Below, piece after piece: positions 6,203-57,140 of a DNA stretch of 64,000 bases. Origin of the DNA: Gonatopus flavifemur (lineage: Eukaryota > Arthropoda > Insecta > Hymenoptera > Dryinidae); NCBI GenBank assembly GCA_018340375.1, contig JAFFJZ010000013.1, positions 3,140,501 to 3,204,500 of the forward strand, written 5' to 3'. The notes below the pieces were generated by a model that searched no databases, was not told the origin of the DNA, and saw nothing but the letters and a program-made list of their open reading frames with translations. Position numbers and translations under genes: made by a program. How positions within the stretch are numbered: position 1 is the first letter of the stretch; each line of letters begins with the position of its first letter.

Positions 6203-6394
6203 AGCAGCTTTATTATCATTGAAAATGTCAGAAATCTCATGCTGTTCTGCTTTCCCTTGGTCATCCGATTCACTATTTTTTACTGTTGTGGATTCTTCTT
6301 CTCAAAAATGTATATCTGGTAATTCGCAATCTAATAATAAATCATGTGATTGAGGTAAAATAATCTCCGAATACAAAGGAATATTCTCTTTTAG

Positions 6395-7099: not shown

Positions 7100-7116
7100 A
7101 GCTTTATCTAAATTAT

Positions 7117-35846: not shown

Positions 35847-36988
35847 TCACACTTCAAAGTACTCACGTAAAGGTTACACAGGGTCTTTCGGACCCCAAAC
35901 CAAAGCAACAGATGTCATTCACGCAGTCTTCCAAATATTGTTGCAGATTTCTCGGTAAAATTCACATCCCGGTGTCTTTGACAACAACAGAAGGCAGCAC
36001 AAATTAAAATTCATGACAAGCACTGTAAGCTAAGCTGACGAAAATTCTTGTCATAATTCCTCATAATTTCTTATTGTCCCAATTCATGGAGGAAATATGA
36101 GGAAGAACAATAGAACAAATAGAATTCCTCATATTTTCTCCATGAATTGGGACAATGAGAAATTATGAGAAATTATGGAAAAAATTTCCGTCAGGGTACG
36201 GAACCACAGACTCCCCCTAGAGCCTTTTGGACTCATGGTGATCTCAAAGTGCTGAGACTGTCCGAATCCGAATGAACTACCATTTTTACTCTCACCGTAG
36301 GAATTCCACTAGACACAAATTCGGAAAAAAAATTCCACTTGAATTTTTGAAAACTTCAGAAACAATCCTAACTTTTATGCCTGATTAGCAATTCTGTGTG
36401 TTGAGACCTTCTCGAGATATACGCATTCAAGAAGAACTGGATTTGTCAGAACTAAAAGCTCCGACACATTGTGAACGGGTGAACACAATAAACTAAAGGA
36501 GAGCAAACGAACAAATTCGACAAATATCCCATACTTTTCAACCAAGAATTCAAGAATAATTATTCTAAAAATATTGAGGAACTCATTGTGAATCTGACCT
36601 GCACTAACTCATATATGTTTCATATGTGATCCACAATTGTTGATCTACCGATTCGGAGTTCATATATGAGCCATATATGGTTTTCAAGAATAAGCGGGAG
36701 TTCATATACGTGGAAGGAGTCACTTCTTTCAAGCGACCGGCGGTGGCTCCAGTGAAAGGGGAATGGAGTCCGGTCCCAACGAACTGCGTTCAATTCTCGT
36801 AGGGGAGACTTTTTTTATACCCCTCAATAAATGGAAATGAATCATATATGGCTCATATATGGGTCATATATGGGTCATATATGGGTCATATATGGGTCAT
36901 ATATGGGTCATATATGGGTCATATATGGATCATATATGATTTATGTATGGGGCATTTGTGGGTCATATATGGTGCATTCCCACCAGGG
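35847..36988 (+). repeat. First of two tandem 1.1-kb units
   Basis: The unit begins TCACACTTCAAAGTAC and ends CATTCCCACCAGGG. It is repeated directly from 36989. The second unit is interrupted at 37386 by the LTR retroelement and resumes at 56127, ending at 56816. Each unit contains a foldback (36036-36200 and 37178-37340), with CATAATTCCTCATAAT / ATTATGAGAAATTATG arms and a CTGACG / CGTCAG boundary. The first unit documents the empty insertion site GGTGATCTCAAAG. Confidence 0.85.
36838..36975 (+). repeat. 11-bp minisatellite GGTCATATATG
   Basis: About eight to ten near-identical tandem copies of GGTCATATATG sit just inside the right terminal repeat of the first unit. Scattered copies lie at 34870-35115 and 56490-56810. 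Confidence 0.9.
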
Positions 36989-37386
36989 TCACACTTCAAA
37001 GTACTTACGTGAAGGTTACACAGGGTCTTTGGGACCCCAAACCAAAGCAACAGATGTCATTCACGCAGTCTTTCAAATATTGTCGCAGATTTCTCGGTAA
37101 AATTCACATCTCGGTGTCTTTGACAATAACAGAAGGCAGCACAAATCAAAATTCACGACAAGCACTGTAAGCTAAGCTGACAAAAATTTTTGTCATAATT
37201 CCTCATAATTCCTTATTGTCCCAATTCATGGGGAAAATATGAGGAAGAACAATTGAACAAATAGAATTCCTCATATTTTCTCCAAGAATTGGGACAATGA
37301 GAAATTATGAGAAATTATGACATGAATTTTCGTCAGGGTACGGAACCACAGACTCCCCTTAGAGCCTTTTGGACTCATGGTGATCT

Positions 37387-38777
37387 TGTGATGTTTTTAG
37401 AGAATCACAATTCAGAATAAACAACACAATTGTTCCTTAGGTTCATGAATGAGAGCCAGATTATGACACCAGTTCGTTTTAGGGTTGCAACGAACAAACC
37501 AGTGAAATGAAGACTATTTGTAGAGGATGACTGAAATTTGATTTATCTTGTATGGAACTCAAGTTGTTAATTAGACTCATTCAAACGAGCGAGAGGGACA
37601 CTCCCCATACAGAGAGCCGATTTGATTGTTGCTAACAAGTCAATTTATATATTCCTTTTATTCAGAAGTGATAAACTGGTAATGGAAAATTTGAAAAAGG
37701 AACACTCACTTTACCCAATTATGGAATGATTTCCATAGATTCCTCTCCCCTCAAGACTTCTCAAAATCAGTATGAATGATGAATTCCGGTTTTCACAATT
37801 TGTTTAATGACACTATTGTTGCGAGTCTGTTCACAATTCACAAATTTTGGATTTCCACAGTTCTTATGCTTCAATTTAATACCATATAGATAAATGAAAT
37901 GACCGCACATAAGTTCTTCTCACATACGTCCAAGACTTAAACGCGCACGGGACTTCGAAAAGCCGAGCGTAAACCACGACTTCAATTAGTATTCGAGAGT
38001 AAAGTTTTCTTCGTTCCAACTCTTCTCGTCAACTTCGACATCCCTTCTTCCAAGGTGAAGGCGTGTCGAAGATGATGGAGTTCTCTAATGAGCGACCACT
38101 TGGTCAGCTCTTTCCGTCTACACCGATGGCCGTCAACTGCATTCCTCCACGTATTGTTATGGGAAAGAAAATGGAATAAAATATTGAGTGCTGATAGCTG
38201 GAGATTTGAAACAGTGGTATCATTGAGTCTATATATCCTTTGCATGATGAAATGATAGATGAATTTCACATTATGACTTTCGGGAACGGAAATATTATAT
38301 TCCTATTCTATTATTTGAACGTTGAAATTCGATTTATTTGCAAAGTGATTCAATGGATAAAGTTTCAATTGAATTTGTTGGATTTCAGAATTTGAATTTG
38401 AATACAGGATATCATAATTTGTTGATATCCATCACCTCAGCATTGAAGGTGAAAGAAGGCAGAGGAAACAAAAGAAAATTTTGATCTCGGACACAATAGG
38501 TTGACCCGAAGAGTTTTTATACACTGGTTTCCAAGGTCAGTTGTCTCAACATTGACAGGTTTATGAGGGTGACTCGAAGTAAAAGGAAAAATGCAGGATG
38601 ACGGTCCATCAATATGAGTATGGCCGCACTTCCACTTCATAATGTGAAAATTCGATTATCCTCAAGACTGCTCTTCGAACATATTTATTTGATCAGAGAA
38701 GATAAAATTTCAAATGTTAAGGGAAATTCTCTGAATATATAGCAAAAAAAAAGAAAGAAATGGTACGGGACGTAAAA
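37387..38777 (-). repeat. 3' LTR
   Basis: Its partner is 54727-56122. Landmarks shared by both copies are GAGAGGGACACTCCCCATAC, ACGCGCACGGGACTTCGAAA and AATGGATAAAGTTTCAA. The sense-strand first bases are TTTTACG instead of TGTTACG in the 5' copy, a change at the terminus. Confidence 0.95.
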
Positions 38778-38790
38778 TCCCTCCTCCCTC
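38778..38790 (-). promoter_or_regulatory. Polypurine tract (plus-strand primer)
   Basis: The sense strand reads GAGGGAGGAGGGA directly against the inner edge of the 3' LTR, the place where retroelements prime plus-strand DNA synthesis. Confidence 0.85.
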
Positions 38791-39132
38791 ATTTCATCGT
38801 CGTCCCGACGATGCGATTGGTATATGAGTAGCAATCTTGAGTTCCAGCACCTCTCACAATGCTCAGACAATTCAAGACCCATAATCAATTGACAATATTC
38901 GAGGTTTCAAGACTTGAGGCGCTGGAAATATTATTCTCTCCACATTCACAATAAAAGGTATCGCAGTCTTCATGCGCGCTAGACAATTCACACGGTCTCT
39001 GCTATCATAATGTTCTACATTTGCGAAATCATTCCGCTTGTATTCTTTGTACGCTATTGTTTGACATTTGAGAACGGAATTTCGAAATTTCTGACGCAGG
39101 AATTGAAGAAGAAGAAGTTCATAATATATATA
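38791..39132. other. Short non-coding spacer inside LTR element
   Basis: I see no gene between the polypurine tract and the large foldback element. Confidence 0.5.
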
Positions 39133-40984
39133 CAGGGTGATTCAAAATTCCCGCACTCTTTTTTGGAAGTAGATTCCTGATGGAATTCTAAAACGATTTG
39201 TCCTTTTGCACAATGCTCTCCGACGCATAATTTCCGAAATATAATTAATTAAAGTTGACTAATTATGAGGTGGATCCATCGGTCATTCAGGAGCGTCATA
39301 ACAGAACAAGAGAGGAAGGTGCTTGTAGAGGGCGCTCATACGATCAGCTGATCGGTATAATCGATATGATTTACCAGCATACAAATTGGTAAATTTTCTA
39401 TGTAGAACGATTGAATTCGTCGACACTGTGGAAAAATTGATTATTGTCATGAATTCTTATCACGATATGCTGTAGGTGAAAGTTATAATTTCAGTGATGA
39501 TTTTTATTACGCAGACAAATGTAAAATGGTGTTATTTCGTAGGGATAGGGATTCAAGTGAGAGAAAGAAGTATAACTACTCGTTTTCAATCAGAATTTTC
39601 ATGTAAAGAAGAAAACATGACAATTTCCATTCATCCGATACCCAATTTGAACGGTTTGATTAGTAAGTTTAACACAAGAGATTGGATTCCGAATCCTGTA
39701 TTCTGATTGGTCGAGAATCAATGTATGTTAGATCAATCCTCGGCCGTTTCAAATGATTCTTCTGAAGAATGTGTTTTCGACTTATCCTAACCACAACATT
39801 GAACAATGATGAATTTATTCGAATTCACCCTTTTTACATCATTCGATGATTATAAAGATTTTATCGAACGTTAATAACTCACTTGAGATCACTCAAGATC
39901 ATTCATGTTTAAATCAAAATCTAATTCAAATGTGTGCAAGTTCGAGCGCGTTTCTACGTTTAGAAAATGTATTCGTCCTATAAAGGACGGATTTGGTTAA
40001 TCTTCAAAGACAATTCTTTTTCCATTTGAAATAACAATATGCCCTTTGGAGTCGTATGTGCTTTCAATGAAACTGTTCCGAGCTGTCACCTGATTGGTTG
40101 ATTCGTATCACGAATGATTGATTTAAGCTAAACAAACCGTATGTGATCACAATGTCAATCAAGTGCAATGATTGGGTCGTATACGATGTCACACCTCGTG
40201 TTTTCGTCAGAATTGATGGATTCTGCAAGTTGAAGTGAGTTATTAACGTTCGATAAACCCTTTATAATCATCGAATGATGTAAAAAGGGTGAATTCGAGT
40301 AAATTCATCATTGTTCAATGTTGTGGTTGGGATAAGTCGAAAACACATTCTTCAGAAGAATCATTTGAAACGGCCGAAGATTGATCTAACATACATTGAT
40401 TCTCGACCAATCAGAATACCGGATTCGGAATCCAATCTCTTGTGTTAAACTTACTAATCAAACCGTTCAAATTGGGTATCGAATGAATGAAAATTGTCAT
40501 GTTTTCTTTTTTACATGGAAATTCTGATTGAAAACGAGTAGTTATACTTCTTTCTCCCACTTGAATCCCTATCCCTACGAAATAACACTATTTTACATTT
40601 GTCTGCGTAATAAAAATCATTACTGAAATTACAACTTTCACCTACAGCATATCGTGATAAGAATTCATGACAATAATCAATTTTTCCACAGTGTCGACGA
40701 ATTCAATCGTTCTACATAGAAAATTTACCAATTCGTATGCTGCTAAATCGTATCGATTACACCGATCAGCTGATCGTATGAGCGCCCTCTGCAAGCACCT
40801 TCCTTTCTTGTTCTGTTATGACGTTCCTGAATGACCGATGGATCCACCTCATAATTGGTCGACTTTAATTAATTATATCTCGGAAATTATGCGTCGGAGA
40901 GCATTGTGCAAAAGGACAAATCGTTTTAGAATTTCATCAGGAATCTACTCCCAAAAAAGAGTGCGGGAATTTAGAATCAGCCTG
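39133..40984. mobile_element. Large foldback element, arms of about 750 bp
   Basis: The left arm 39133-39893 (starts CAGGGTGATTCAAAATTCCC) and the right arm, about 40232-40984 (ends GGGAATTTAGAATCAGCCTG), are complementary with few differences around a unique core of about 340 bp. Both outer flanks are TATATA runs, which may be the target duplication. There is no ORF of note. It lies between the F-box ORF and the 3' LTR, and so adds about 1.85 kb to the retroelement. Confidence 0.92.
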
Positions 40985-42146
40985 TATATATATATATGTA
41001 TGTATATATGAGTTTACATTTAACTTAGGGAGGATTATTCACCATCGTTACTATGAATTACTAAGGATCGTTTGGTCAGTCTATCTTGACAAAGGAGGTT
41101 TAGAAATGTATTCACATCGATCAAGATAGTCATCTCTTGTAAAAATCGATGATGTATTTTCCTCCCTCTCATCCCATTCTTTAGTTTCTATTATTGATAG
41201 TAATGAGATTCATCATACGGTTACCGTTGATGAATCATTCAATTTGAAAAGAAAAGGAAGTTCCAAACATGTTCATCGATAATTCCGACGAAGTCAATCA
41301 CCTCTCACATTGATCGAAGTTATTCAGAGGTACCTTTAGGCACCGGATCAATATGAATCGCTCAATTCTCGCAGTTCCAATCTCATTTCCCCTTTCCTTT
41401 CGACTCCTATCAAGCTATGCTCAGGTCTCTCTTATCTACAGGAATTTGATTGATTTATATTACTCCTATCAATGCATATTTTTATAATTATATACTTTCC
41501 ACGCATTGACCTAAGTCGCACAGAGATGCCTATTTCAGCACCAGGTCAATGTGTTCCACTTGGTGGTTCGATTCGTTACTCGTTTATAAGGAGAAAGAGG
41601 AGGAGGAAATGTTTTCCTTTAGGAAAATTCATTGATGGAAAGTCATTTATTCCCCACATTGATCAAAGTTATTCAGAAATGCTTTTCAGCATCGAATCAA
41701 CGTTGGGTCTCTCATCTTCGAGAAACGTTTTCCTTCTCCCCCTGTCATCCCGTGGCTATGATATGGCCAACATACGGATTTTATCCTTCAGAAGAACAAA
41801 AGTTGTTTGATCAAGTGTATAAATATTCTCGTGTTGAATCATATGTTTTTCGGGGATGATCCACCATTCGTGTTACTTGTCCATATTATCTGGGTAATCC
41901 ATATTATATGGATCTGAGAAGGAAAATGCATGTCACGCTCATTAACAGTCGGTCGTGCCGAAGTGCAGTTGCACTGATTAATGAAAGTTCATTTCTGATT
42001 CGAAATTAATGGTAGATCATCCCTGCAAACGTGCTTAATCATTACAGGTACCTTCTGTTTTTTTTTTTATTTCCTACTTGCTTGTGGTCCTTTGGCATGG
42101 AGCGAATGTTGATCTTCGGCTGATGTTATCCCTTGGTACTTGGTGT
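40985..42146. other. Region 3' of the F-box ORF
   Basis: No gene is recognised. On the sense (minus) strand an A-rich run (AAATAAAAAAAAAAAA) occurs about 75-90 nt after the F-box stop, near 42060-42075. It may be a fossil poly(A) tail or simply an A-tract with a polyadenylation-like AATAAA. Confidence 0.5.
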
Positions 42147-43871
42147 TTACTGGTACAGCGGCGATGTCCTCCTCTCGTATCTGATATTGAGGTAGAAGTT
42201 CATTTTATCGCGCTTATAGCGCATTGCGGATGTTCCTCCAAGGAATATGTCTCTTGTAAAGGTTGGTCGGCTCCCACGCAACAACGTGATCGCACAGTCG
42301 ACCACCGGCCGTCTCATCGCTGTGCACGCTTCAAGATCCAGGCATCTCAGATTTGTATTTCGCCGCAGGAGCGTGATCACGTCCTCGTCAATGATACCGT
42401 GATTGTCTCGGCATTCAACACTCTCCAAACTGGTGAACCCCCGCAGACAATGACCATCCACGTCCGGATGTGGGTTGTTTATATTTAGCACCCGTAATCT
42501 TTTCAGGCGCACCAAATCATCTAGGCCACCTACTCCCTGTATATTCGTGCACCCGCATAGATCTAGTTCTTCGAACAAGTGTAGCTCTCTTCCGATATCC
42601 ATTACTACGCTGGAATTGACCCATCCGCAGAATGTCAGATGCAGGCATACGATGTCCTTGTACACTCGAGGGAGAGAAGGCGCAGCTGGTCCCACTGGCA
42701 GCTCCACCCAATCACCAACCTCGCCCTGTTGTTCCTCCTCGTCTTCCGGTTCCGGTGGCAGGGGAATGGTGAAATGACATAGATGGAACTTGATAGTTCG
42801 CACCGTTTCACCCAAAATTTTGTTTTCCAGGAGTGGCCCCAGCACCTGTTGGTCTCTTAGATTTCTGCAGTCTCTGATTTCAAGGCAATTTAATCCCTTT
42901 GCCTGGAGGAGCAGCACTGCCAGACTTTCAGATCTCAAGATGTTGCAACGCGCGAACAGGAGGGAGTCCAACTCGCGTGCCATCCGTTTCAACGCCTGGC
43001 CTGTGATGTCATTATCTGTCATGTGTATGGTGGTGATTATTGGGTTCTTTGTTATTATTTTTTCTAGTCCAGGATCCACTGGTCCGCGGCAACGTCCCAA
43101 TTTCATGCTGGTCAGGCACCCCATTCCTTCAGCCAATCTGTCCAGGAGTCCTGGCCTGATGGTAGTCCCGGTGGTATTCATGATTTTTAGACCAGGGCAC
43201 AGCCTCGCTACGATGGTGAGCACTTGTGGTCCAATATACTCGCTCCTCTGAGGGTCTGTGATTATCAGAGCCTCCAGATTCGGGCAGCGTTCAGCAACCC
43301 AGCGCACCTGGGACGAATAGATGTTCCCAATATCGCTCCATCGCCAATCGGTTAGGTCCAACTTTCGATCATTCCGATGGGAATCCAGGCTGCCAAGCCT
43401 CCACTTGTGGCAGACGAACTCCGCCCTGGATCGGTCCTCGTATGTCAGGTAGCTGAACATCTTTCCCAGAACCTCGATTGGTAAGTCGCTGGCTACACAT
43501 GCCGAGACCAGTCCATGACCATTGCCTGATGGTAATGGCGATGGTTGTCCTTGCTTATTCTGCCCTCCAGATGTCGTCGGGTCTTCTGGGTTACGTTTCG
43601 GTCTCTTCCTCTCATTCCACGGGTCTGCAGCCTCCACAACCAGCTTCCGTTTGTATAACACTAGCTCCCGTGTCTGCGCCCAAGCCAACGCCTCATTTCG
43701 TTTTTCCGAGTCAGGAAAGCACACAAACGCCTGCTTTGACACCTTCTGTTTCTTGAAGATCATCTTCCATGCTCCGAAATCCTTGAACATGGTCATTAGG
43801 TTTCGTTCTTTGACTCCAAAGGCCAGTCTTCCCACATACAAGCGTTCTCCCTGTTCCTGTCCAGGCTCCAT
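42147..43871 (-). CDS. RRM + F-box + LRR protein inside retroelement
   Basis: This 574-aa ORF starts at a real ATG (43869-43871) and has no break. Residues about 9-82 form an RRM: RLYVGRLAF (RNP2) and KQAFVCF (RNP1). After a polar linker, residues about 129-178 form an F-box (LPIEVLGKMFSYLTYEDRSR, then VCHKW). From about 190 to 540, leucine-rich repeats follow (CPNLEALIITD, CPGLKIMN, LTSMKLGRC, LNCLEIRDC, LEELDLCGC, LRCLDLEAC). F-box proteins usually recruit substrates to SCF ubiquitin ligases through such repeats. An RRM would add RNA binding. The gene is intronless, visibly GC-richer than the DNA around it, in the same orientation as gag-pol-env, and lies between env and the 3' LTR. It could be a captured host gene, a virus-borne accessory gene or a retrocopy inserted later. 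Confidence 0.85.
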   Translation of the reverse strand: MEPGQEQGERLYVGRLAFGVKERNLMTMFKDFGAWKMIFKKQKVSKQAFVCFPDSEKRNEALAWAQTRELVLYKRKLVVEAADPWNERKRPKRNPEDPTTSGGQNKQGQPSPLPSGNGHGLVSACVASDLPIEVLGKMFSYLTYEDRSRAEFVCHKWRLGSLDSHRNDRKLDLTDWRWSDIGNIYSSQVRWVAERCPNLEALIITDPQRSEYIGPQVLTIVARLCPGLKIMNTTGTTIRPGLLDRLAEGMGCLTSMKLGRCRGPVDPGLEKIITKNPIITTIHMTDNDITGQALKRMARELDSLLFARCNILRSESLAVLLLQAKGLNCLEIRDCRNLRDQQVLGPLLENKILGETVRTIKFHLCHFTIPLPPEPEDEEEQQGEVGDWVELPVGPAAPSLPRVYKDIVCLHLTFCGWVNSSVVMDIGRELHLFEELDLCGCTNIQGVGGLDDLVRLKRLRVLNINNPHPDVDGHCLRGFTSLESVECRDNHGIIDEDVITLLRRNTNLRCLDLEACTAMRRPVVDCAITLLRGSRPTFTRDIFLGGTSAMRYKRDKMNFYLNIRYERRTSPLYQ

Positions 43872-44051
43872 ATTTCTTTATCTACGGATCAAAGTGCAAA
43901 TTAGCTATGTTTGTTTTCAAAGGAAGATATTTGAGAAGATTTCAAAATTATTTTCCAGTTCAAATTATTCAGATCCAAGTTGTTCAGAAATGTCATCCGT
44001 GACACTGAATCTGAGCTGATGATGTTGTCTAGATTGATTTTAAATGAGATT

Positions 44052-46037
44052 TCAGTTTGTTATCGCTTGCTGCGTAGGGAGCGTCCGCTTGGATCCTCCG
44101 GCAGTGGCTCTCTCTGCTGGTTCAGGAGGCTCTACTTTGGCTCTCCGCATCTCGATTCTCACTTCCTCGTGGCGAGCCTGCTCCTTCAGGTCCAGATTTT
44201 CCCGTTTCCTAGGCTTCCTGCAGCATAATGATCGCTTGAGCACAAGTCTGATTATAATTCTCCAAATTGAACCTCAAAACAGATACAAAAAACCACAAAC
44301 GATTGTGATAATCTGTATCCCGATCAGATAAAAGTTGAGATTCGATTGTTTCTGCCTGGTTCGAGTGGGACTGCCTATTTCTTCCAACTTTTGCTCTAAT
44401 GTTAACAGAGAATTTTCACTCAAGTCTTCGAAATGCTTCAAACTTGTTGATTCTATTCTTCCACGAATTGTCCTAAATTCTAGTGTCTTTGCTATTATTG
44501 GAGGAATTTGTGTTATGTTTAGAGCAATTATTGGATTATGGTAATATTGTTCTGCTTTTTGTATCACTTTAGAATTCACCAGGGTCACATAATGGTTCTT
44601 TACTATGCAATTTGGATTGAATTCTAGTATTCCGGACCCTTCAACGGTTATAATTTCCAATTTTTCATTCGGACAAATGAGTTGCAGATTTTCTGTTCTA
44701 TTTACTGCATATAGCCAGGAATTCAATGTTCTTATTCTGGTCCAAGAGTTTTGGTGTTCTAGATTTATTCTGATATTACAATTTCGTAGTTTATCAGCTT
44801 TTGGATTCAGTCACAGCAATAATTCACAAGACGGAGAGTCTTGAATTCCTCTCAACGGAAAATTTGGTTCGCAGAAATGAATTCTTTGACTATGCGTACA
44901 AAGCGTAGTGGAGTGATCATCAACAGTGAGATATAGTCCATTGGTGTAGCTGATTCCGAAATATGGGTTTTCTGGTTTGATATATGCTGACGTGGAATAT
45001 CCAGATAAATTTTGAATAACAGGCCACGAATGTAATCGGTATATGTCATAATCGATCTCGTCCACTGATGGTATGTGTAGAATGAATGAAAATCTCTCAT
45101 TCGACCGCGATGTAGTTACAGTAGCAAGATCTGTTATTTCTCTAATGCTCGATCCTTGATGGGATAAGGGAATCACGTACTCCGGTGCGCTATTATGGAT
45201 TTCTTGGATTACTTGCTTCAATTTTGAACGTTTCAGAAGTGAAGGATGCGCTTTTCCTAGTTCAGCCGAATATAGGGAATCTATACAATTTTGTCTGGTT
45301 ATTAGAAAATGGTTTAAAAATTCTTCTATTTGGTTTATGCAGCGATTCATAACATATTGAAGATCTGCTAATTGTTGCTCCTTCACCCATCTTTTCAACT
45401 CTGCAGCAATGAGATTAAGCCTTTCACTGTTCCCTTTTATGGCAATTTCATGATTTTGAATAGTTTCTTGCAATTGATGTAAGTCACTTGTTATTATATG
45501 AGTTTTCCTTACAATTTGTGCTATTTGATTTTGATCTCTGTATAATTTATCAATTTCATCTTTAAAATAATCAGCATCTCCAGAGTTCGATGTTCCGAAA
45601 AGATTTTTACTAACGGTTCCTACAAATCCAAAAGGTACCATTCTTCTCGTGATTGTTTTTACGGGATTATTTCCGAGACGCGGTTCCACTATTTCCCTCA
45701 ACAATCCATGTATTTCGTCATGAATTTGCATTGCTCTTTCTAATTTAGCATTCATATAATCTTTTCTGAGGGATATATCGCACTCGAATAGGGATTCATG
45801 GTTTAGACAAAGATCTTCCGTTTTATTTAGTAAATCCAAATCAAATGGGAATTTGACCTCCAATTTTTCTGTGTCCCACACTATAAACACTCTCCACTTG
45901 ACGCCTTGTAGGCGGATGTTATACAGTCTTTCAAAGTACAGTCCGGTGTTTGTATTCACTTTGGTAATTTTATAATTGTCTTTACCATGTGTCTTCATCA
46001 GGAGTGTGAGAAGGAGAGAGATCACTATCAGCTTCAT
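44052..46037 (-). pseudogene. env: Errantivirus env (F-like fusion glycoprotein), broken
   Basis: The frame starts at an ATG (46035-46037) that overlaps the integrase end by about 55 nt in another frame, as in many errantiviruses. A hydrophobic signal peptide occupies the first 18 or so residues. A basic pair at about residue 130 and the following hydrophobic/Gly segment correspond to the cleavage site and fusion peptide of insect-retrovirus/baculovirus F-type envelopes. Helical heptads follow. A membrane span lies near the end of the 44726-44274 part. In-frame TGA codons at 44811-44813 and 44274-44276 interrupt it. Beyond the second stop the same frame runs on, Arg/Lys-rich and GC-richer, to 44052. 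It would be an entry glycoprotein if intact; this copy is not. Confidence 0.85.
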
Positions 46038-47541
46038 TTTTACTGATCAACTCCAATTTATCCACATGTTTAGTAAAAAGTTTTCCATTACTACCCTTCA
46101 GTACGACATTTCCCTTTTCAAGAATTCCAACTATTTTATATGGTCCTTTATAACCTGCACTGAATTTTCTTTTCTTTGGTTCGATTAGTACTTCTACAAG
46201 ATCCCCTATTCTTCCCTGGGGAGGTCTTGTCTTCTTGTCATAGTAACTTTTGGATTTTTCTTTCGCAGTTATCAAGTTTCCACTGGCCATTCCTTTCATT
46301 TCTGTCAATCGAGAAATTAAATCATGAGCATATGAATTATAAGTGACTAATTCTTCTTCCGAAGGGAAAGACGTAAGTGTTCGGGCTCATTTTCCAAAGA
46401 CCAATTCGAATGGTGTGAAGTTAGTTGCTTCATGTACAGAGGTATTGTAGGAGAACATAGCAAAAGGTACTATTTTATCCCAGTCATCAGAATCAGACAA
46501 ATAGTGACTTATATACTCAGTCAAGACTATATGGCTCCTTCCTAGACTACCATTTGTTCGTGATCTATAGCCTGAAGTAGTCAGATGTTTGATCTTGAGT
46601 ATTTTTGGAATTTGATTGAAGAACTTATTGATAAAACTGGTTCCTCTATCGGTCGAAATTGCCGAAGGACTACCAAATTGCAAAATCAAGTGATTCACTA
46701 CTGCGTTAGCTACGGTTTCTGCTCTAATATCAGGGATAGGTATTGCTATACAGTATTCAGTTAAGTTATCTTGCATGGTAAGAATGTGCCTGTTACCACT
46801 TGGTGTAATTGGCAAAGGACCTACTGTGTCGACTGAAACTTTTGTGAAAGCTTCTATTGGTGTATCAGTAATCAACATCGGTTCTCTGGTTTTTGTTCGG
46901 ATTAGTTTATGATCCTGACATCTTTTACATGTGCGAATAAAGTTTTGGATATCATTCCTTAATCCAGGCCTATAGAACTTTTCACGCACTCTGCGGTAAG
47001 TCTTATGAATCCCTCTGTGTCCCCCCATCAAACTTTCGTGATATTCAGAAATGATATCCAGACGTAGTTCTTCGGGTGGAATGACAACTTCACCGTGACA
47101 GATGGTGATCACTATGTCGTCTTCCTCAAAGATATCCATTAATATTTCTATTATTGTACCCTGAGGGATAGTTTTGATGAAGTCCTCATTTTTCGAAATT
47201 CTAAACTCTTTGATGTTCAATTCCAATAAAACTTTTCTCAAATTGTGTAATACGAGAAATCAAATGTCCTTTGTAATTTTGTCATACCATTTATCCTTCA
47301 AAACTGCACTAAAAATCCTATGTTTTCCTGTTTTGGTGGTAAAGATTCGACCCACTTTCGGTTTTAATTCTTTTAACTCATCTGAATTTATAAGTCCGAT
47401 ATCTGAGAGTAATTTATTTGCAGGAATAATCACCTCACAATCAGTTGGAATAAAATGAACTGAATTTGACTTCTGGTATGTTGAATTTTCACGAGAATAT
47501 TTTATGAAGTTCGCATCTTGCAAAAATCGTCCCAAATTCAA
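45982..47541 (-). pseudogene. pol: Retroelement integrase region of pol, broken
   Basis: 47541-47260 carries the spacer typical before integrase in insect gypsy-group pol (ELKPKVGRIFTT). 47241-46387 has the HHCC zinc-binding domain (YHESLMGGH ... CKRCQ) and the catalytic core (VDTVGPLP, STDRGTSF). Where the third catalytic residue, Glu, is expected, this copy shows Gly (NGSLGRSH). 46308-45982 holds the GPY/F-type C-terminal module (YKGPYKIVG). All parts lie in one frame, separated by TGA codons at 47260-47262 and 46387-46389. Integrase would insert the cDNA and give the 4-bp duplication. This copy is inactive. Confidence 0.9.
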
Positions 47542-47649
47542 CGGGCTGATCGGGTCAATATCTGGTGGGATAGATTCTCTAACCTGAATTTTTTTAGGAT
47601 TTGATGTGTTTTTTGTCCCTGAATCAATTATTCTTCTGGGAATAGTTGG

Positions 47650-48992
47650 TTATTTCAGATTTTGTGGTGGATCTTTTTGAAAGGGAGTGGATAAAGCTGG
47701 AGGTTTCGATATCACCGATGGTGTGGGAATAGTCTGACTGTGTGGTTGTCTGTTTTTAATTGAATGATCCAAGGTTTGGTTTGGCGTACTGATTTCTAAT
47801 TCTTCGTTCTCCGGAATATTTTTCAGATGAGGATGTTGCAGAGGTTGTCCTTTGAATTTTTGTTCCATTTCCCTCTCAAACTTTTGAACATTTTCTGCTA
47901 ATTTCTCAATTCTCCAATCTAATTCCTCATCTGATAATTCTGTATCATAAGGGTCATTATCGAGCAATATATCTCGGGTTGAATCATCTAATGATCCACC
48001 CTCTGGAATAACTTCGGGTAATTCCAATTCTTCTATTTCTTCCTCCTCTTTTTCAGAGAGATGGCTATTATCTTTCGAGGACTTTTCAAATTTTTCAAAC
48101 GAGTGTGGTAATTCATCCAAATCAATTGGGAATCTTTTCTTTTCCGGTCTATCTTCTGTTACTAAAACCTCATCATCACCTTCATCGCTTTTCTCAGGCA
48201 ATTCAATCCTGATTTCATCATCAGGCAAGGGAGAAGGGGTATTCTTCACCTGTTCTGCTTCTATCTCAACTTCAGTATGAACTTCTGCATGTTCCCCTTT
48301 CTTGGTTATTTCAGGCACAGCCCCTGATCCATCAAGACCCGGTAACACACTTTTTCGTCCTCTGTTTACAGGTGGTTCCTCTTTATTCACTTCCGATTCT
48401 TCTTCGTCACGCGAAGAATCGGTTGCTTCTTCTCCCTGAGTACCTGACGGAGGCAATGATGTGGCTTTTGATTGATTTTCTCGGGATTTTAATTTCAGTC
48501 TTGTACGACTTGCTATAGAACTAGTATTCACTGGATTAGAAATTTTAGTTTTTTTTTGCGAAGGGGTGGTTTAGATGCTGGTTTGGAAGAACTGGGTGCA
48601 CTATGTACACGCTCCCGAGATTCCACTTCCTTTATTTTATCTTTTTCTTCGGATTTTGGGTTAGTCGCGGTATCTTCAGGGTAGGGGGTCTTTTGACCGA
48701 AAAAGTTTTTGGCCGAATCGAGATGATTTGACAATCGCTAGTCGCTTTCAGAGAACACTAGAGAATGACTAGCGATTGTCAAATCATCTCGATGCGGCCA
48801 AAAACTTTTTCGGCCAAAAGACCCCCTACCATCTTCAGCCGGATTTTCTTTTGAATTCGCGGATTTTGCAGGATGAGCGGGTTTCTTCCTCAACATCATC
48901 ATGCTAGCATCTTCTACTTCCGAATCTCCCCCTCCATTTTCTGAAGAGGAACTACTTTCGGTGGTTGATTCCAAATCTAACTCGTCGGAGCT
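47650..48992 (-). pseudogene. Acidic Ser/Pro-rich linker between RNase H and IN
   Basis: Directly after the TAG (48993-48995) that ends the RT/RNase H frame, the same frame continues as Ser/Glu/Asp-rich sequence to the MITE at 48830. It resumes after the MITE and ends at 48528. A second frame begins with an ATG four bases earlier (48531) and stays open for 293 codons to 47650. It is very rich in Glu, Asp, Pro and Ser (EKEEEEIEELELPEVIPEG), with no recognisable fold. The frame shift coincides with a homopolymer T run near 48547-48556. About 440 codons of such sequence between RNase H and integrase are not usual for gypsy-group pol. It may be part of pol, a separate protein or foreign. Confidence 0.55.
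48680..48830. repeat. hAT-like MITE family A, copy 3
   Basis: The ends GGTAGGGGGTCTTTTGACCG and CGGCCAAAAGACCCCCTACC are inverted. The perfect 8-bp duplication ATCTTCAG flanks it (48672-48679 and 48831-48838). The arms are highly complementary. It was inserted into the retroelement after that element arrived or within its lineage. Confidence 0.95.
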
Positions 48993-50782
48993 CTACAGGG
49001 TTTCTTCGTTTACAGGATTACGCGAGAGGGCATCAGCATTGGTATTCAGTTTCCCCGGTTTGTGCACAAAATTGTATTCATAATCACGCAATTTCAATCT
49101 CCAACGGACTAGACGTTGTCCAGGATCTTTAATCGAATCTATCCATTTCAAAGGTTCGTGATCGCTGAATGAAGTGAATTTTCGTCCGAACAAATATGGT
49201 CTGAAATGAACTATAGCGTATAATACGGCTAAACATTTTTTCTCAGTAGTTGGATAATTCTGTTCTGGCTTTGTCAACGTTCTAGACAAATAAGCGATTG
49301 GAAGATCAAACCCATTGAAATTTTGGCTCAGTACTGCACCGATAGCAAAATCTGATGCATCTGTGGTTAACGTGAATTTCCTATCAAAATTTGGGTACTG
49401 GAGGATTGGTTTTTTGCACAATGCCTCACGCAATTTCCGGAAACTTTGAGTATGCTCTTTTGTCCAAACAAATTTCGCATTTTTCTGTAATAGTTCGGTT
49501 GAAGGTTTAGCTATCTTCGCCAAATTTTTTATGAATCTTCTGTAATAGCCCGCTAGACCTAAAAATTGTCTAATGTTTTTCTGGTTCTGAGGTCTGGGAA
49601 AATTCTTTACAGCATCAATTTCCTGAGGATCGGGTTTCACACCATCCCGAGTAATAATATGGCCTAAATGAACGAATTCTTCTCTCAAAAATTGGCATTC
49701 ATCTGGTTGTGAGGTAATTTTCGCTTCTCCTAATCTTCTGAACAATCTATGGATTTTGCGTTCATGTTCTTCCAATAATTTCGCAGAGACTACAATATCG
49801 TCCGAATGAACGAATAATTCAACACCCTGCAATCCCCTTGAGACCGTGTCCATCATCCGTTGAAACGTCGGAGGTGCATTTTTCAAACCTTCGGGCATCC
49901 TAACGAACTCATAATGTCCGTGAGGGGTGGTGAACGCTGTTTTGTGCCTATCTTTTGGATTCATTGAGATTTGTTGGAAACCACTCGCGAGATCTATTAC
50001 CGTGGAATACTTAGCTTCTCCTAACTGATCTAGGATTCCATTAATGTTTGGTAAGGGATATGCATCGCCTATGGTTTGAGCATTCAATTTTCGAAAATCT
50101 ATGACCATACGCCAACGCGGATTTCCCTGCGAGTCGGGTTTTTTAGGCACGATCCAAATGGGTGAGTTATACGGAGAAGTTGAAGGCTTGATTATGTTAT
50201 TTCCCAATTTAATGTCAATTCGTCGTTCTATTTCGTCTTTATGTATCGGCGGAAATCTATATTGTCTCGTATTGGCGGTTTGTTTCCATCAAAAATTCTA
50301 TGTCTGCTATACGGAATGTAACGTAATTTATCTCCGGGCAAAGAGAAAATGAATGGGTATTCCTCTATGATATCTACAACATGTTTAATTTCTTCCTGGT
50401 TCAAATGCTCCAAATTGAGTTTATTCCAAATTGAATCCGACCTGTCCACCCTATCTTGTAAGGTTAGAGATTTTTCTTCAAGGTCTAGATCAGAGATATC
50501 GCTCTCATCAGGACAGCAATGATATTCAAAAGGAATAATTTCTTGTGGGGGAATTTCGATTCTAATATCCTGATTCCATGTATTTATTGCTAGAACATAA
50601 TACGTTCCATTTTCATCAGGTGTAACCAAAGCTTCACCTATGTAAACCCCATCCTCTGTTTCTAATTTTGAGAGGTATCCTTCCTTCAAAACTGGATTCA
50701 TGACATCAATAGGTATGGATTGCCTCGTTCGTCCTTGTATAAGCAACAAACGTGGTTTCAAATTTCTTCTTTGTGAATTCAA
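48993..50782 (-). pseudogene. pol: Retroelement RT-RNase H region of pol
   Basis: 50782-50228 holds the segment before RT (YPFIFSLPGDKL, ending at the SRHRI block) and ends in a frame change. 50207-48993 is an open 404-codon RT-RNase H: TSPYNSPIWIVPKK, RMVIDFRKLN, YSTVIDLASGFQQI, FVRMPEGLKNAP, then a catalytic box reading HSDD where gypsy elements usually show Y-x-DD. RNase H has TLTTDASDFAIGAVLSQ, LYAIVHFRPYLFG and FSDHEPLKW, ending with LNTNADALSRNP. It synthesises cDNA from the RNA genome. The frameshift and the changed active-site box suggest loss of function. Confidence 0.92.
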
Positions 50783-50811
50783 ATTCCCTTCCCCTAAGAA
50801 AGGTATGGGTT

Positions 50812-51177
50812 TTAAGGATCACTTTTGGTTACTATGGTATGATGAGAGGAAGATATCTCTGCTTCCTCTTGTAAGAGGTATTCTTTCCCTAGTATACCGG
50901 AACAATTCAAATGAAATGATGATCGAACTACGTGAAATTTGACAGGTTGATTCAGTATATTTATTATGGCTGTCCATATGGTGTTAATTTTTTCAGTGGT
51001 AATACCGGTTATCGAGACGGATTCATGCAAAGAAACTTGTACGTTTTCATCTAACGCGTTCAATTTTATAACGTTTACATCGGCTCCTGTATCTATTAGG
51101 AATATACCTTCTTCGTCACGTAACTCTTTCGATTGCAATTTGATCATTGGAAACTCGAATTTTTCGTCCCCACTCAT
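50812..51177 (-). pseudogene. pol: Retroelement aspartic protease region
   Basis: The 121-codon frame contains GIFLIDTGADVNVIK, the DTGA active site of retroviral-type proteases, and GILGKEYL, the flap-distal Gly motif. It would process Gag-Pol. It lies between gag and RT as expected. The frame ends in TAA at 50812, so it is not continuous with RT, which needs either frameshifting or reflects decay. Confidence 0.82.
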
Positions 51178-52523
51178 TCCATAGTTTCCAGGATTTTGAG
51201 ACTCGCGTGACGCTCTCTTTCGGGTTTCTGACTCGTCACTGCGTTCGTATGACGAGTCCCTGACCGGTTTAAATTATCAAATGAATTTTGACTAAGAGAA
51301 ACTCTTTCATTATTTCCCGATGATCTTGATTGATTCCCCGGATTGGCAAATCTGACCGGCGAATTTTCTCGACCACTTTCCCGAGAAGAAAACTGCTTAT
51401 TAGGTGGAAATGATCTGTGATTTTATTGAGAAGGTTGTGGATGAGGTGAGAAGGATCGACCTGTTCCCCGATACGAGCCGTTATCGCGTGGATCATTTTT
51501 CTGATTTCCGTAACTGTATGGATCTTTATGAGGTTGATTATGGTGCATCGATTGTTGATGCGGTGCGTATGGATTTGAGTATGAGGGTGGATATGGATAG
51601 TACGGATATGGCATTGGCGGTGGGTAGTATGGTGGATATGGAGGATATCTCATGGGTGGAATTTGTGGTGGATTTTGGTCAAAATTTGAACTTCTAGGCG
51701 GTTTTAAAGTTCCTACAGGATTCAGGTTTGAAGTTGATGGTACTGAGCTCGGTGTTCTTGATCCATCAGGTGAATTCAGAACAGAATAATTTCTATAGTT
51801 TCCTGAATCTCGACTATCATTATCTAATTTATCGTGACGATCATAGGGATTGTGCAGAGAGGACGAAACTCTGGATGTTCCTCCTCCCGGTATGATTCCA
51901 GTTCTCATTTTATTTTCAGTTCTTACCGCGATTTTATGGGCTTCGTCCAAATCTTGTGGGTCTCGAGAGTCCACTGCTCTTGCTATTTCGTCCGGTAAAC
52001 CGCGTAAGAATGATTCTAAAGCGCACTCCTGTACGGGCTTTAACATACTTTCAGCGTCATCTCCATATTCATCTTGCAGAGCAATTTTTGCGCCGCTTAA
52101 TAACAAATTCAACCTATCATGGAAATCGCTCACCGACTCACCACGATCCATTCGAATTCTCTCTATTTCGTGTTGATAGTATGGGTATGTTTTCCCGGGA
52201 GCGAATCTATTCTTCAAATGTTTAATCAAATCATCTACAGTGTTGAAATTTTCCCCGTAAGTGCTATCTCAAGCGGCACCGCGTAACTTTGCCAAAACTT
52301 CTTTCACATAATTTGGTTCGGATTCTGCTAATACAGAAGCGGCTCCGTTTCTGATATCTTGCAAAAAATCTTCCAAAGGGAGGTTTTTCCCATCGAAATT
52401 AGGAATGGTACGTAAGCTTCGCTGCAAGCTCGTGCACTCAGCTATGGATTTCATCATAGAATCAGGAAGGGTTGTATTTGCTTCTGATCGGCTGCTTCCC
52501 GAAGCTTCGTCTTCGTTTGGCAT
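51178..52523 (-). pseudogene. gag: Retroelement gag, broken
   Basis: It starts with an ATG at 52523. 52523-52269 and 52229-51423 are in the same frame, separated by TGA at 52269-52271. The capsid-like part includes FAPGKTYPYYQHEIERIRM and VQECALESFLRGLPDEIA, similar to gypsy-group Gag capsid segments. The C-terminal part is rich in Pro/Tyr (PPYPPYYPPPMPYPYYPYPP) and then Arg/Ser. No CCHC zinc knuckle is seen, as in many errantiviruses. After TAA at 51423-51425 the frame runs on Arg/Ser-rich towards 51178. Confidence 0.85.
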
Positions 52524-54698
52524 TTTGGCGACTCACTACGACGCGATTTAGAACAGGGAAATCCAAGAGTACTCTTCAAGTATTCCAAGATGTTTGTTCA
52601 ATTCCTCGGGAACAATTGGCATTCAAGGAAAATTCAGTGAATTTTCTATTAGGAACGTTTTACTGCTTCCTTTTCAAATTTCAACAACAAAGATTCTTCG
52701 GAGTTTGTTGGTGAGAGCAGAGTTCTTAGTAAGAGGCAGTCTTATTTGGTTTATGGAACTCCAACGATTTGATACAGTCAAGTTCGCATAGAAAAGACTA
52801 GTTCCAACTATTCGGATCTTCCTCCTTACCCTTGAATTCCGAGAAAGGGTGACTGAATTATATAACTCTGCAGAGTAAAGATCAGAAATGTCTACGACAT
52901 CAGCAGGAAATTATACAATTGAGTCATTCACACGAAAAGGGAAAAGAAAAATTCTAAACCTTGACTGTAATCTATCGTCTCTCTTGTTAATTGTAGTTTC
53001 ACACAAATCTATTTACAAAAGTATTTGGACACGAATATCAGTGCATATGTACAATAGCTCGCGTATAGCAGGATTCCTTTCGATTATGACTGACTTCTCT
53101 CATGAATTCTAGTTATGTCTTGACACAGATATCTATTGCATCTCGGAAATTGATTATTCAGTAATTCGTTCGAACAGAACACCAAAGTTATTGCAGAGAT
53201 TGCTGAAGCAACCGGGTGTTGTTCAATTACAAGAATTTTCATGAAACAAAAGCGTTAATTATATCCTTTTTTTCAATTACACGTAAACAGCTACCCTTAC
53301 GTGTCCTAATCACGAATTTTCAAGTCCCTGAGTTCTCTGATCATTCAATTTCGGGCGCAACAGAGAACACTGTGACGCGATGTGACGTATTAAGAACACA
53401 TATACAAAGAGAAAAACATTATACAATTATAAACATATGTTATATCTACCGAATCCGAACTCTTTAATATTCCAATTTTCGAACATTTCAACGACAATTT
53501 CTCACATCTATTTTACTCTCTCAAGACAATTCTCCAAATTTCAATATATAACTGTCGGGCCTTCAAACTGAAGGTATGATACAATTTCGCATTCTAAAAC
53601 TTAATCCAAGAACCGATCTTTATCTGATTTCGAATTATTCAAAATTGAGGGAATTGAAAATCTCGGCTCTTCAATAATTCACAATGCTGGATCAGAGTTC
53701 AGCTTCGTATAATTTGATAAAAAAGAATTCAAATGTGAAAAAAAATAATTGATATATATACATGTATATATATATATATATATACATACAGACATATACG
53801 AATGAGTCCGAATTTGCATGCACGGAACCATAAAATCCCTGGAACACTGATGAGTCCGCAAATTTTATCAACTACGTTCTTTCTTGTTCGAATACGCGGA
53901 CTCGGGGTTCAAAACACTCAGTCAAAAAAAATTTTTGAATTTCGTAAAATTGAATTCTGTGAAATTCCATCTAATGGTCATTCATGCTCGAACGGAACGC
54001 CAAGATATTTCAGAGATTGCCATGCAACCGGCATTTTTGTTCGATCACAGAACATTCCCCAATTCACTCATGAATTCTCAACTACTCGAATTATTCAATG
54101 TCAAGGCAATGAAAATGAGAATTAGGCAATCCTGTAATGGTTGAAAGTATACCCCAGAATTCAATTCCGTCACAACTCAGAAATGGAAAATATATACGAG
54201 TGGATATCAATCGTCAAGCACAATTCTAAAAAAAAACCTGTAAAGTTTCAAATATTCATGAAAATCTAATCTTCACCACCAATTTGCACATTGAAAGACT
54301 CACGTCACTGGTTCAAATGATAGTTGACAAATTGATTCTCATGCAAAATTAAATTCATGAATACTCACATTACATACACATTTTATACAGATTTTTTTCA
54401 GAGCATTTGCAAAAAAGAAAAGGAAGAAAGATCAAATATTTTTATATTTATAATGACTGGTCATATGATTATTATAATCGGTCATACATCATGCATATGT
54501 ACAAATGTACAAAGAAAGACCTGTAAAAACATTAAGGATTGATAATTATTGAATTATGAATTGATAGGAAACATCAGATATATTCCTTTATTAAACACTA
54601 TATTTGAGATTATCGCGGGGAGAAGTCTTTGTTACTTTGGAATTTGAATCGGAAATGAATATTAACCACAATCAAACTGAATGGAACTTGATGAAACG
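52524..54698 (-). other. Long 5' leader of LTR element
   Basis: About 2.2 kb separate the primer site from the gag ATG without a recognisable ORF on the sense strand. A TA/CATA microsatellite lies at about 53750-53800. The leader may hold packaging signals or inserted DNA. Nothing more can be recognised. Confidence 0.6.
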
Positions 54699-54718
54699 AT
54701 CCCACACTTCTGACACCA
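54699..54718 (-). promoter_or_regulatory. Primer binding site, tRNA-Leu-like
   Basis: On the sense strand TGGTGTCAGAAGTGTGGGAT lies 8 nt after the 5' LTR. Except for one extra T it would pair with a 3' end ending ..CCCACTTCTGACA-CCA, which resembles eukaryotic tRNA-Leu. The assignment to Leu is from memory of tRNA ends. Confidence 0.75.
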
Positions 54719-54726
54719 ATTTTTTT

Positions 54727-56122
54727 TGTGATGTTTTTAGAGAATTGTATTACAATTCAGAATCAACGACTCAATCGTTTCTTTGGTTTATAAATGAGAG
54801 CCAGATTCTGACACCAGTTCGTTTTAGGGTTGCAACGAACAAATCAGTAAAATGAAGAATATTTGTCGAGGATGACTGAAATTTGATTTATCTTGTATGG
54901 GACTCAAGTTTTCAATTAGACTTCTTCAAACGAGTGAGAGGGACACTCCCCATACAGAGAGCCGATTTGATTGTTGCTAACAAGTCAATTTATATATTCC
55001 TTTTATTCAGAAGTGATAAACTGGTGATGAGAAATTTGAAAAAGGAACACTTACTTCACCCAATTACGGAATGATTTCCATAGATTTCTCTCCCCTCAAG
55101 ACTTCTCAAAATCAGTATGAATGATGAATTTCGGTTTTCACAATTTGTTTATTGACACTATTGTTGCAAGTCTGTTTTAACAATTCACAAATTTTGGATT
55201 TCCACAGTTCTTTTGCTTTAATTCAATACCATATAGATGAATAAGATAACCGCACATAAGTTCTTTTCACATACGTCCAAGACTCAAACGCGCACGGGAC
55301 TTCGAAAAACCGAGCGTAAACCACGACTTCAATTAGTATTCGAGAGTGAAGTTTTCTTCGTTCCAACTCTTCTCGTCAACTTCGACATCCCTGCTTCAAG
55401 GTGAAGGCGTGTCGAAGATGATGGAGTTCTCTAATAAGCGACCACTTGGTCAGCTCTTTTCGTCCACACCGATGGCCGTCAACTGCATTCCTCCACGTAT
55501 TGTTATGGAAAAGAAAATGGAATAGGATATTGGGTGCTGATAGCTGGAGATTTGAAACAGTGGTATCATTGAGTCTATATATGCTTTGCATGCTGAAATG
55601 ATAGATGAAATTCACATTGTAACTCTTGGGAACGGAAATATTATATTTCTATTTTATTATTTGAATGTTGAAATTCGATTCATTTGCAAAGTGATTCAAT
55701 GGATAAAGTTTCAACTGAATTTGTTGGATTTCAGAATTTGAATTTGAATACAGGATATTATAATGTGTTAATATCCATCACCTCAGCATTGAAGGTTGAA
55801 GAAGGCAGAGGAAACAAAAGGAAATTCTGACTTCGGGAACAATAGGTTGACCCGAAGTGTTTTCATACACTGGTTTTCAAGGTCAGTTGTCTCAACATTG
55901 ACAGGTTCATGAGGGTGGCTCGAAGTAAAAGGGAAAATGCAGGATGACGGTCCATCAATATAAGTATGGCCGCACTTCCACTTCATAATGTGAAAATTCG
56001 ATTATCCTCAAGACCGCTCTTCGGACATATTCAATTGATCAGAGAAGATGGAATTTCAAATGTTAAGGGAAATTCTCTGAATATATGGCAAAAAAAAGAA
56101 AGAAATGGTGCGGGACGTAACA
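54727..56122 (-). repeat. 5' LTR
   Basis: Plus-strand termini TGTGATG ... GTAACA. The partner is 37387-38777. It is followed by the duplicated target ATCT. Differences from the partner include a short insertion near 54745 and scattered substitutions. Confidence 0.95.
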
Positions 56123-56816
56123 ATCTCAAGGGGCTGAAAATGTCCAAATTCGAATGAACTACCATTTTTACTCTCACCGTAGGAATTCCACTATACACAA
56201 ATTGGAAAAAGAAATTTCACTGGAATTTCTGAAAAGTTCAGAAAAAATCCCAACTTTTATGCCTGATTAGTAATTCTGTGTGTTGAGACCTTCTCGAGAT
56301 ATACGCATCTAAAAAGAACTGGATTTGTCAAAACTGAAAGCTCCGACACATTGTGAACGGGTGAACACAATAAACTAAGAAATAGCAAACAAGCAAATTT
56401 GACAAATATCCCATATTTCTCAACGAAGAATTCAAAAATAATTATTCTAAAAATATTGAGGAACTCATTGTGAATCTGACCTGCAATAATTCATATATGT
56501 TTTATATGTGATCCACAATTGTTGATCTACCGATTCGGAGTTCATATATGAGCCATATATGGTTTCCAAGAATAAGCGGGTGTTCATATACGTGAAAGAA
56601 GTCGCTTCTTTCAAGCGACCGGCGGTGGCTCGAGTGAGAGGGGGATGGAGTCCGGTCCCAACGGACCGCGTTCAATTCTCTTAGGAGGCCTTGTTTTATA
56701 CCCCTCAATGAATGGAAATAAATCATATATGTTTGGATTACTCATAACATATATGATCCATAGATGGTTTATATATGGGGCATATATGGGTGATATATGG
56801 TGCATTCCCACTAGGG

Positions 56817-57140
56817 TTATGATTCGGTCTGTAAAGAAATCATTCACTTCATTTGATATTATAAAGTCATGGTGTTTTTGACAGAATTCACCCCTTCCTA
56901 TGTGTCAATTTTTCAAACGCACGAGTAGATTTTTCTTCTCAACTTTTCCCATGTGTTTTTTTTTATTTCATATAGATATCTCATTCATTCATCATACAGA
57001 ATTTTTTCATTGTATTTTGTGAGATATTTGAGATATGTTTCAAGTAATTCTTCCATTGTTCTTTTGTTCTCTATTCTTTTAATCACTGTTAAACTGTCAT
57101 TCATTCATCTTCTCATTCACTTCGTTGATATCATATAAAG
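56817..57140 (+). repeat. R-family unit, right-hand remainder
   Basis: TTATGATTCGGTCTGTAAAG and the following DNA (GATATTATAAAGTCATGGT, ACGAGTAGATTTTTCTTCTC) continue the unit cut at 34852, as judged from the unbroken unit at 34242-34400. Confidence 0.85.

Follow-up and report, generated by a model that had tools for sequence, protein, structure and literature searches.

How does a gene encoding an RNA recognition motif (RRM), an F-box and leucine-rich repeats (LRRs) come to lie between the envelope gene and the 3' long terminal repeat (LTR) of an insect retroelement, and what might it do there? The question is raised by a 64,000-nucleotide stretch of the genome of the dryinid wasp Gonatopus flavifemur (assembly GCA_018340375.1, contig JAFFJZ010000013.1, positions 3,140,501 to 3,204,500), referred to here as the window. 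The minus strand of the window carries, at 37387-56122, an env-bearing gypsy-type (Ty3/gypsy) LTR element with an intact gene between env and the 3' LTR, which we call FBX (42147-43871, minus strand, 574 codons). The gene was examined by Pfam scan, structure model and genome search, and its frame is the longest among the 24 listed open reading frames (ORFs) of at least 150 aa in the window. An original prediction, made from the letters of the window alone, had placed this ORF in the accessory-gene position of an errantivirus-like element and proposed its capture from a cellular gene. The evidence below indicates that FBX is almost certainly an element-borne, host-derived and selected accessory gene.

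FBX as a resident gene of the env clade

The host assembly (636 Mb) was searched with three FBX copies as protein queries, the best 76-78 of 103-111 candidates being scored for each, and 60 merged FBX loci were obtained. For comparison, the rows of the first env search and nine further rows that added something were merged into 91 env loci, of which 58 belonged to the clade of the window element (at least 40% identity) and 33 to other clades (below 30%). When positions were compared, with coordinates entered by hand, FBX was found downstream of the clade env on the same strand at 44 of the 58 loci within 5 kb and at 45 of the 58 within 15 kb, but downstream of none of the 33 env loci of other clades (Fisher p 1.5e-14, with copies that are related by descent and hence not independent). 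A very diverged FBX in other env clades could escape such a search, because the queries come from the clade of the window element; the two loci of other clades that were read in part (L046 and L047) gave no FBX match. Thirteen clade env loci lacked FBX in the position list, and the one that was read directly (L045) contained the first hundred codons of a diverged, shortened FBX.

The flanks of the 20 next-best FBX loci gave a similar picture. Integrase and env were collinear upstream of FBX in 17 of these, an env remnant was present in L025, and no env match was obtained in L030 and L031. LTR-like sequence followed FBX on its 3' side in five of the 20 (L013, L014, L021, L029 and L032). For 14 of the 60 FBX loci the position list showed no clade env in the 15 kb upstream; one of these is L036, in which other env queries did reveal an env. 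In L030, a gag fragment (1141-1443) and FBX (4098-5729) are present but nothing matches pol or env across the stretch covered; this copy may have lost its interior while retaining FBX. The original prediction had held that absence of the ORF from other copies of the family would refute capture by the element and mark a chance retrocopy insertion. The other copies do carry FBX at the same place, thereby bearing out its accessory-gene position in an errantivirus-like family, and chance retrocopy was rejected because of this fixed position in many copies and because of the selection described below.

Selection on FBX and its cellular origin

The pairwise distances among FBX copies tracked those of env (Mantel r 0.946, 13 loci, 0 of 5000 permutations) and of integrase (r 0.968, 12 loci, 0 of 5000 permutations), when only loci with a single match spanning 80% or more of the gene were used. 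The regression slope of FBX distance was 2.45 on integrase and 1.08 on env. The FBX proteins of the subfamilies share 38-93% identity with that of the window. For deep pairs, the ratio of nonsynonymous to synonymous change (dN/dS) was 0.068, 0.074 and 0.105 for FBX, 0.114 for env, and 0.067 and 0.068 for integrase; these values are rough because the pairs differ between genes and dS, at 1.3-2.7, is near saturation, other FBX pairs being beyond measure. FBX is under purifying selection between subfamilies, with a rough dN/dS of about 0.07-0.11. For close pairs the ratio ranged from 0.3 to 1.1 across FBX, env and integrase (one FBX pair being undefined), as would be expected if changes after insertion were neutral.

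These data bear on the idea that a host retrocopy landed in one element and was carried along without function. FBX is intronless and differs from its neighbours in base composition, as such a passenger might. However, the idea is contradicted by a dN/dS near 0.07-0.11 between subfamilies, by co-divergence with env and integrase, and by the presence of FBX at 45 of 58 clade env loci, which leaves it extremely improbable. The G+C content at third codon positions (GC3) of FBX was 0.47-0.60 (23 loci), whereas in the same elements integrase gave 0.25-0.35 (18 loci) and env 0.29-0.41 (20 loci); for the host cellular gene described below, two exons gave 0.39-0.41. Because silent sites are saturated between subfamilies, simple inheritance from the donor is an unlikely reason for this excess.

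We also considered whether the window copy had been domesticated by the host, since its FBX has stayed open although its LTRs are 7% apart and its env is broken. The changes specific to this copy gave a dN/dS of 0.64, 0.97 or 1.11, depending on the comparison copies, which is near neutral. Moreover, in simulations of substitutions (indels were not simulated) the chance of meeting no stop was 0.29 at 2% change and 0.11 at 3.65%, and the copy had been noticed precisely because it was open. The window FBX thus appears to be decaying near-neutrally, and domestication by the host is not supported and is very unlikely.

Searches of the protein database, with 7997 candidates scored in each, returned at E 0.001 or better two matches for the FBX query and four for a profile of six copies. 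These comprised two near-identical tick-type proteins (one from Haemaphysalis), a centipede protein and one plant F-box/LRR protein (E 0.001). RRM, F-box and LRR are annotated in part or in full in the tick-type and centipede proteins, which share 29% identity with each other over 675 columns. The silence of the database does not show absence from other insects, because annotations often omit transposon proteins. No exogenous relatives of FBX were found in IMG/VR or phage records, and there was no PHROG match.

The host genome itself contains a cellular homologue at C1:55704-55707 kb, which in several exons encodes an RRM, an acidic linker, an F-box, LRRs and a C-terminal GGTS, in that order. 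Its gene model was made by hand with exon borders chosen by eye, and a Cephus protein matches five ordered pieces at the same place. The model matched 129 proteins, and the 120 listed were, where named, mostly from Hymenoptera, several of them as "putative RNA-binding protein EEED8.10". FBX aligned with a Ceratosolen protein at 24% identity over 569 columns (E 1.6e-38, in a 125-protein set), and three copies of the window type showed 24-26% identity over 569-580 columns with their best cellular match. By these alignments, FBX is homologous from end to end, and collinear through RRM, F-box, LRRs and C-terminus, to an intron-containing arthropod EEED8.10-like gene. The capture of FBX from this gene family, as originally proposed, is therefore well supported by sequence homology.

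In a tree of 46 rows, the host cellular gene grouped with 14 aculeate genes (support 100/99). The six open viral copies came out together (100/100), with a stem of 2.2 changes per column, as a clade whose position as sister to the full set of 32 Hymenoptera rows was weakly supported (84/61). Forcing the viral clade to join the host gene (p 0.078), the chalcids (0.247) or the aculeates (0.086) was in no case rejected by the approximately unbiased (AU) test. None of the six viral copies had the host's own gene among the 12 best cellular matches listed for it, an argument against recent capture from this host. A chalcid donor had been suggested by several top BLAST matches, but the tree places the viral clade elsewhere, without rejecting the chalcids at the AU value given. 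Paralogs of the host gene were also dismissed as donors, since four paralog pieces grouped with the host gene and not with the viral clade in a quick tree, from which 10 of the 46 earlier rows were omitted. The C-terminal GGTS was present in 12 of 40 cellular proteins (including one GGSS), among which were 9 of 15 aculeates but none of 17 other Hymenoptera, and in five of the six open viral copies; this distribution weakly hints at an aculeate-like or older donor. The capture probably took place in or near the hymenopteran lineage. Separately, several host loci (L034/L039 and L041-L044, on C1, C359, C349 and C24) are related to the part of the EEED8.10-like gene that encodes the LRRs; the matches come in distinct pieces resembling exons, and some of the loci have long branches.

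Homology, position and selection were read from the copies, and from these we infer the act of capture itself. A spliced message of the cellular RRM/F-box/LRR gene was presumably taken up by the env-bearing gypsy-type clade, and purifying selection has kept FBX as subfamilies arose within that clade. As to how the element might express it, a possible 3' splice acceptor lies just upstream of FBX (43872-43884, minus strand), where TAG (43884-43882) is followed by 10 nt and the FBX ATG. In 21 of 22 loci, all but L030, an AG was present no more than 22 nt upstream of the FBX start, although an AG this close is common by chance and the count has no chance control. TCGTAG or CCGTAG before the start was common to three groups whose FBX proteins are 38-60% identical to that of the window. 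The acceptor-like site in several subfamilies suggests a putative spliced message beginning just before the FBX ATG. A search of the leader for a consensus splice donor found none, which counts against such a message.

Domains of FBX and its possible action

The original prediction of a 574-aa RRM/F-box/LRR protein held good, with differing strength for the three parts. The F-box of the window copy (residues 128-158; 43398-43490, minus strand) matched the F-box-like model above its cut-off (E 3.8e-6, 27.0 bits, cut-off 24.3). The RRM (residues 11-63; 43683-43841, minus strand) fell just below its own (RRM_1 E 5.7e-4, 20.1 bits, cut-off 20.7), and the LRR solenoid (residues about 170-545; 42237-43364, minus strand) was seen chiefly in the structure model, its Pfam match being below cut-off (LRR_4 E 3.2e-4, 21.3 bits, cut-off 27). 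The model, with a mean pLDDT of 68.7, showed an RRM-like fold, F-box helices and an LRR solenoid. A search of the PDB with this model gave the SKP1-bound proteins FBXL2 and FBXL17 as top matches (TM 0.43-0.45 by query length). The window copy thus has the layout of an FBXL protein, with an F-box motif above the curated cut-off followed by an LRR solenoid, and the host genome contains one Skp1 (PF01466) match.

The original prediction had suggested a modulator of host ubiquitination or RNA silencing, a role that the F-box, LRRs and RRM make plausible. On this basis FBX could serve the host's SCF ubiquitin ligase as a substrate adaptor, a proposal to which we give about even chances. The F-box would dock SKP1, the LRR solenoid, which is the better conserved half, would bring in a host protein to be destroyed, and the RRM at the N-terminus would keep the complex on RNA, possibly the transcript of the element itself. 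The likeliest target may be a host antiviral or RNA-silencing protein, and this is the weakest step of the proposal. Several observations weigh against the adaptor reading. The F-box stretch of the structure model is of low confidence. Among the four open copies scanned by Pfam, the F-box model was above cut-off in two (window and L025), below it in L035, and without any match in L036. The RRM scored below the cut-off of 20.7 bits in all four (20.1, 16.0, 19.2 and 18.2 bits), and the window FBX lacks what we take to be the first aromatic residue of the RNP1 motif. Invariant columns among six viral copies, three of them near-identical, made up 34% of the F-box/LRR junction and 23-26% of the LRRs but 15-16% of the RRM and F-box, which by this count are the less conserved parts of FBX. 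Such a pattern fits an adaptor in which the target surface is most firmly constrained, and it fits equally a protein that is losing its F-box in the branch of L035 and L036.

The erosion of the F-box in one subfamily would also suit a decoy, that is, an FBX that rivals the host EEED8.10-like protein for SKP1, RNA or targets without degradation, and that the host answered by gene duplication. The domain order of FBX is identical to that of the cellular protein, homology extends from end to end, and at least four further host loci match the LRR part and fall with the host gene in the tree, some of them with long branches. However, the cellular EEED8.10-like gene is uncharacterised and the expansion of paralogs has other possible causes, and we regard a decoy as a rather unlikely alternative. 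With similar reservation, RRM and LRRs might serve the export, translation or packaging of unspliced element RNA, with the F-box as a relic. The export factor NXF1 likewise combines an RRM with LRRs. A role of this kind would agree with the RRM signal, which though weak is detectable in each of the four open copies scanned, whereas that of the F-box declines in L035 and L036; the raised GC3 of FBX (0.47-0.60) could aid export of an intronless message. It agrees less well with the top PDB matches, which are F-box/LRR proteins, and with the F-box/LRR junction as the most conserved block, and we consider it doubtful. A fuller version of the adaptor proposal, in which the RRM sits on element RNA, arriving silencing proteins are ubiquitinated and destroyed, and the EEED8.10-like duplicates of the host are the counterpart in an arms race, seems unlikely.

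Known systems resemble the element in part. With insect errantiviruses it shares LTRs, the order of gag, RT/RNase H and integrase, a Baculo_F env and a 4-bp target duplication. To our knowledge, the gene set generally ascribed to these and other env-bearing elements of insects is gag, pol and env; the FBX gene sets the present element apart, and searches of the open-licence literature, which do not show absence from print, found no paper on an errantivirus with an F-box and, among the titles and abstract openings listed, no description of such an element. The cellular EEED8.10-like gene has the same three domains in the same order, near full-length homology and, in part of both sets, the C-terminal GGTS; it differs in that the host's gene has introns and the viral clade is monophyletic on its stem of 2.2. 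Viral F-box proteins include polerovirus P0, nanovirus Clink and the poxvirus ankyrin/F-box proteins, which are alike in that a virus-coded F-box is presumed to use the host SCF. As far as we know, P0 and Clink are without LRR or RRM, and the poxvirus proteins use ankyrin repeats. F-box/LRR and LRR proteins of giant viruses (Tupanvirus, Klosneuvirus and others) have a similar predicted fold, but those are DNA viruses and identity was 9-17% among the 50 matches listed. Accessory counter-defence genes mark the complex retroviruses of vertebrates. If FBX is indeed a conserved, host-derived adaptor of SCF type, it would offer a way to study how the endogenous retroviruses of insects respond to control by the host, and joining RNA binding to protein disposal in one gene would be an uncommon means of counter-defence in an insect retroelement. 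The finding also points to the uncharacterised arthropod EEED8.10-like family as a possible player in that conflict. F-box genes and transposons have met in nematodes as well, where cellular F-box genes are reported to have captured transposon domains (Tc1/mariner), the opposite direction of capture (PMC12062965). Passages of PMC12992720, PMC13172572, PMC2774666, PMC12062965 and PMC5563511 make no mention of an F-box gene carried by such an element.

Structure of the window element and its surroundings

On the minus strand, read from 56122 to 37387, the element consists of 5' LTR, primer-site-like stretch, gag, RT/RNase H, an acidic ORF, integrase, env, FBX, spacer, purine tract and 3' LTR. 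The 5' LTR (54727-56122) has TG...CA ends and is 93.0% identical to the 3' LTR (37387-38777, end uncertain by one base) across 1391 columns. The ATCT target duplication (37383-37386 and 56123-56126), the primer site and the polypurine tract of the original prediction were all recovered by eye, the primer site only as a primer-binding-site-like stretch, TGGTGTCAGAAGTGTGGG, 8 nt inside the 5' LTR (54701-54718). The polypurine tract, GAGGGAGGAGGGA, is a purine run adjoining the 3' LTR (38778-38790).

The predicted gene order of gag, protease, RT, integrase, env and FBX was confirmed by Pfam except for the protease, which stands by position only, as an ORF upstream of RT (50228-50782) without a Pfam match. 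The gag fragment (51423-52229) was weak and below cut-off (Retrotrans_gag E 0.013). Reverse transcriptase and RNase H (48993-50207; RVT_1 E 2.1e-27, RT_RNaseH_2 E 1.5e-36) are followed by integrase (46387-47241; Integrase_H2C2 E 1.7e-21, rve E 1.5e-8), an order that, with LTRs and a short target duplication, is that of Ty3/gypsy elements. The env is of the baculovirus F type, as in errantiviruses, in a first part (44811-46037; Baculo_F E 3.3e-26) and a second part (44274-44726; Baculo_F E 6e-7), its single frame being interrupted by two TGA stops. Between RNase H and integrase lies an acidic ORF of about 290 aa (47650-48531) that is common to the family: 14 of the 22 family loci searched gave tblastn matches to it (37-91% identity). 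A Pfam scan of this ORF gave nothing above cut-off.

The window copy is old, as its LTRs are 7% apart. Two younger FBX-bearing copies had LTR pairs of 98.5% and 98.2% identity (1074 and 1297 columns), found through a genome search in which the best 40 of 137 LTR candidates were scored and which served only to find the LTR partners of these two copies. The segment at 39124-40993, between FBX and the 3' LTR, is bounded by 761-bp inverted repeats (39124-39884/40233-40993) and was taken as a nested insertion because two related copies are without it at that place.

The element was inserted in a repeat, with flanks about 90% alike on both sides (36241-36540, 36832-36978, 56123-56422 and 56748-56817), and an 11-bp tandem, CATATATGGGT, is present on one flank. 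Elsewhere in the window, a mariner-type transposase ORF was found at 367-1431 (plus strand) and a DDE_Tnp_4 transposase ORF at 16387-17139 (minus strand). A Helitron-like remnant at 1890-7836 (minus strand) comprises a replication-initiator/Helitron_like_N ORF, DUF6570 and a Pif1-type helicase piece, and the ORF at its end encodes a ubiquitin carboxyl-terminal hydrolase (UCH) domain.

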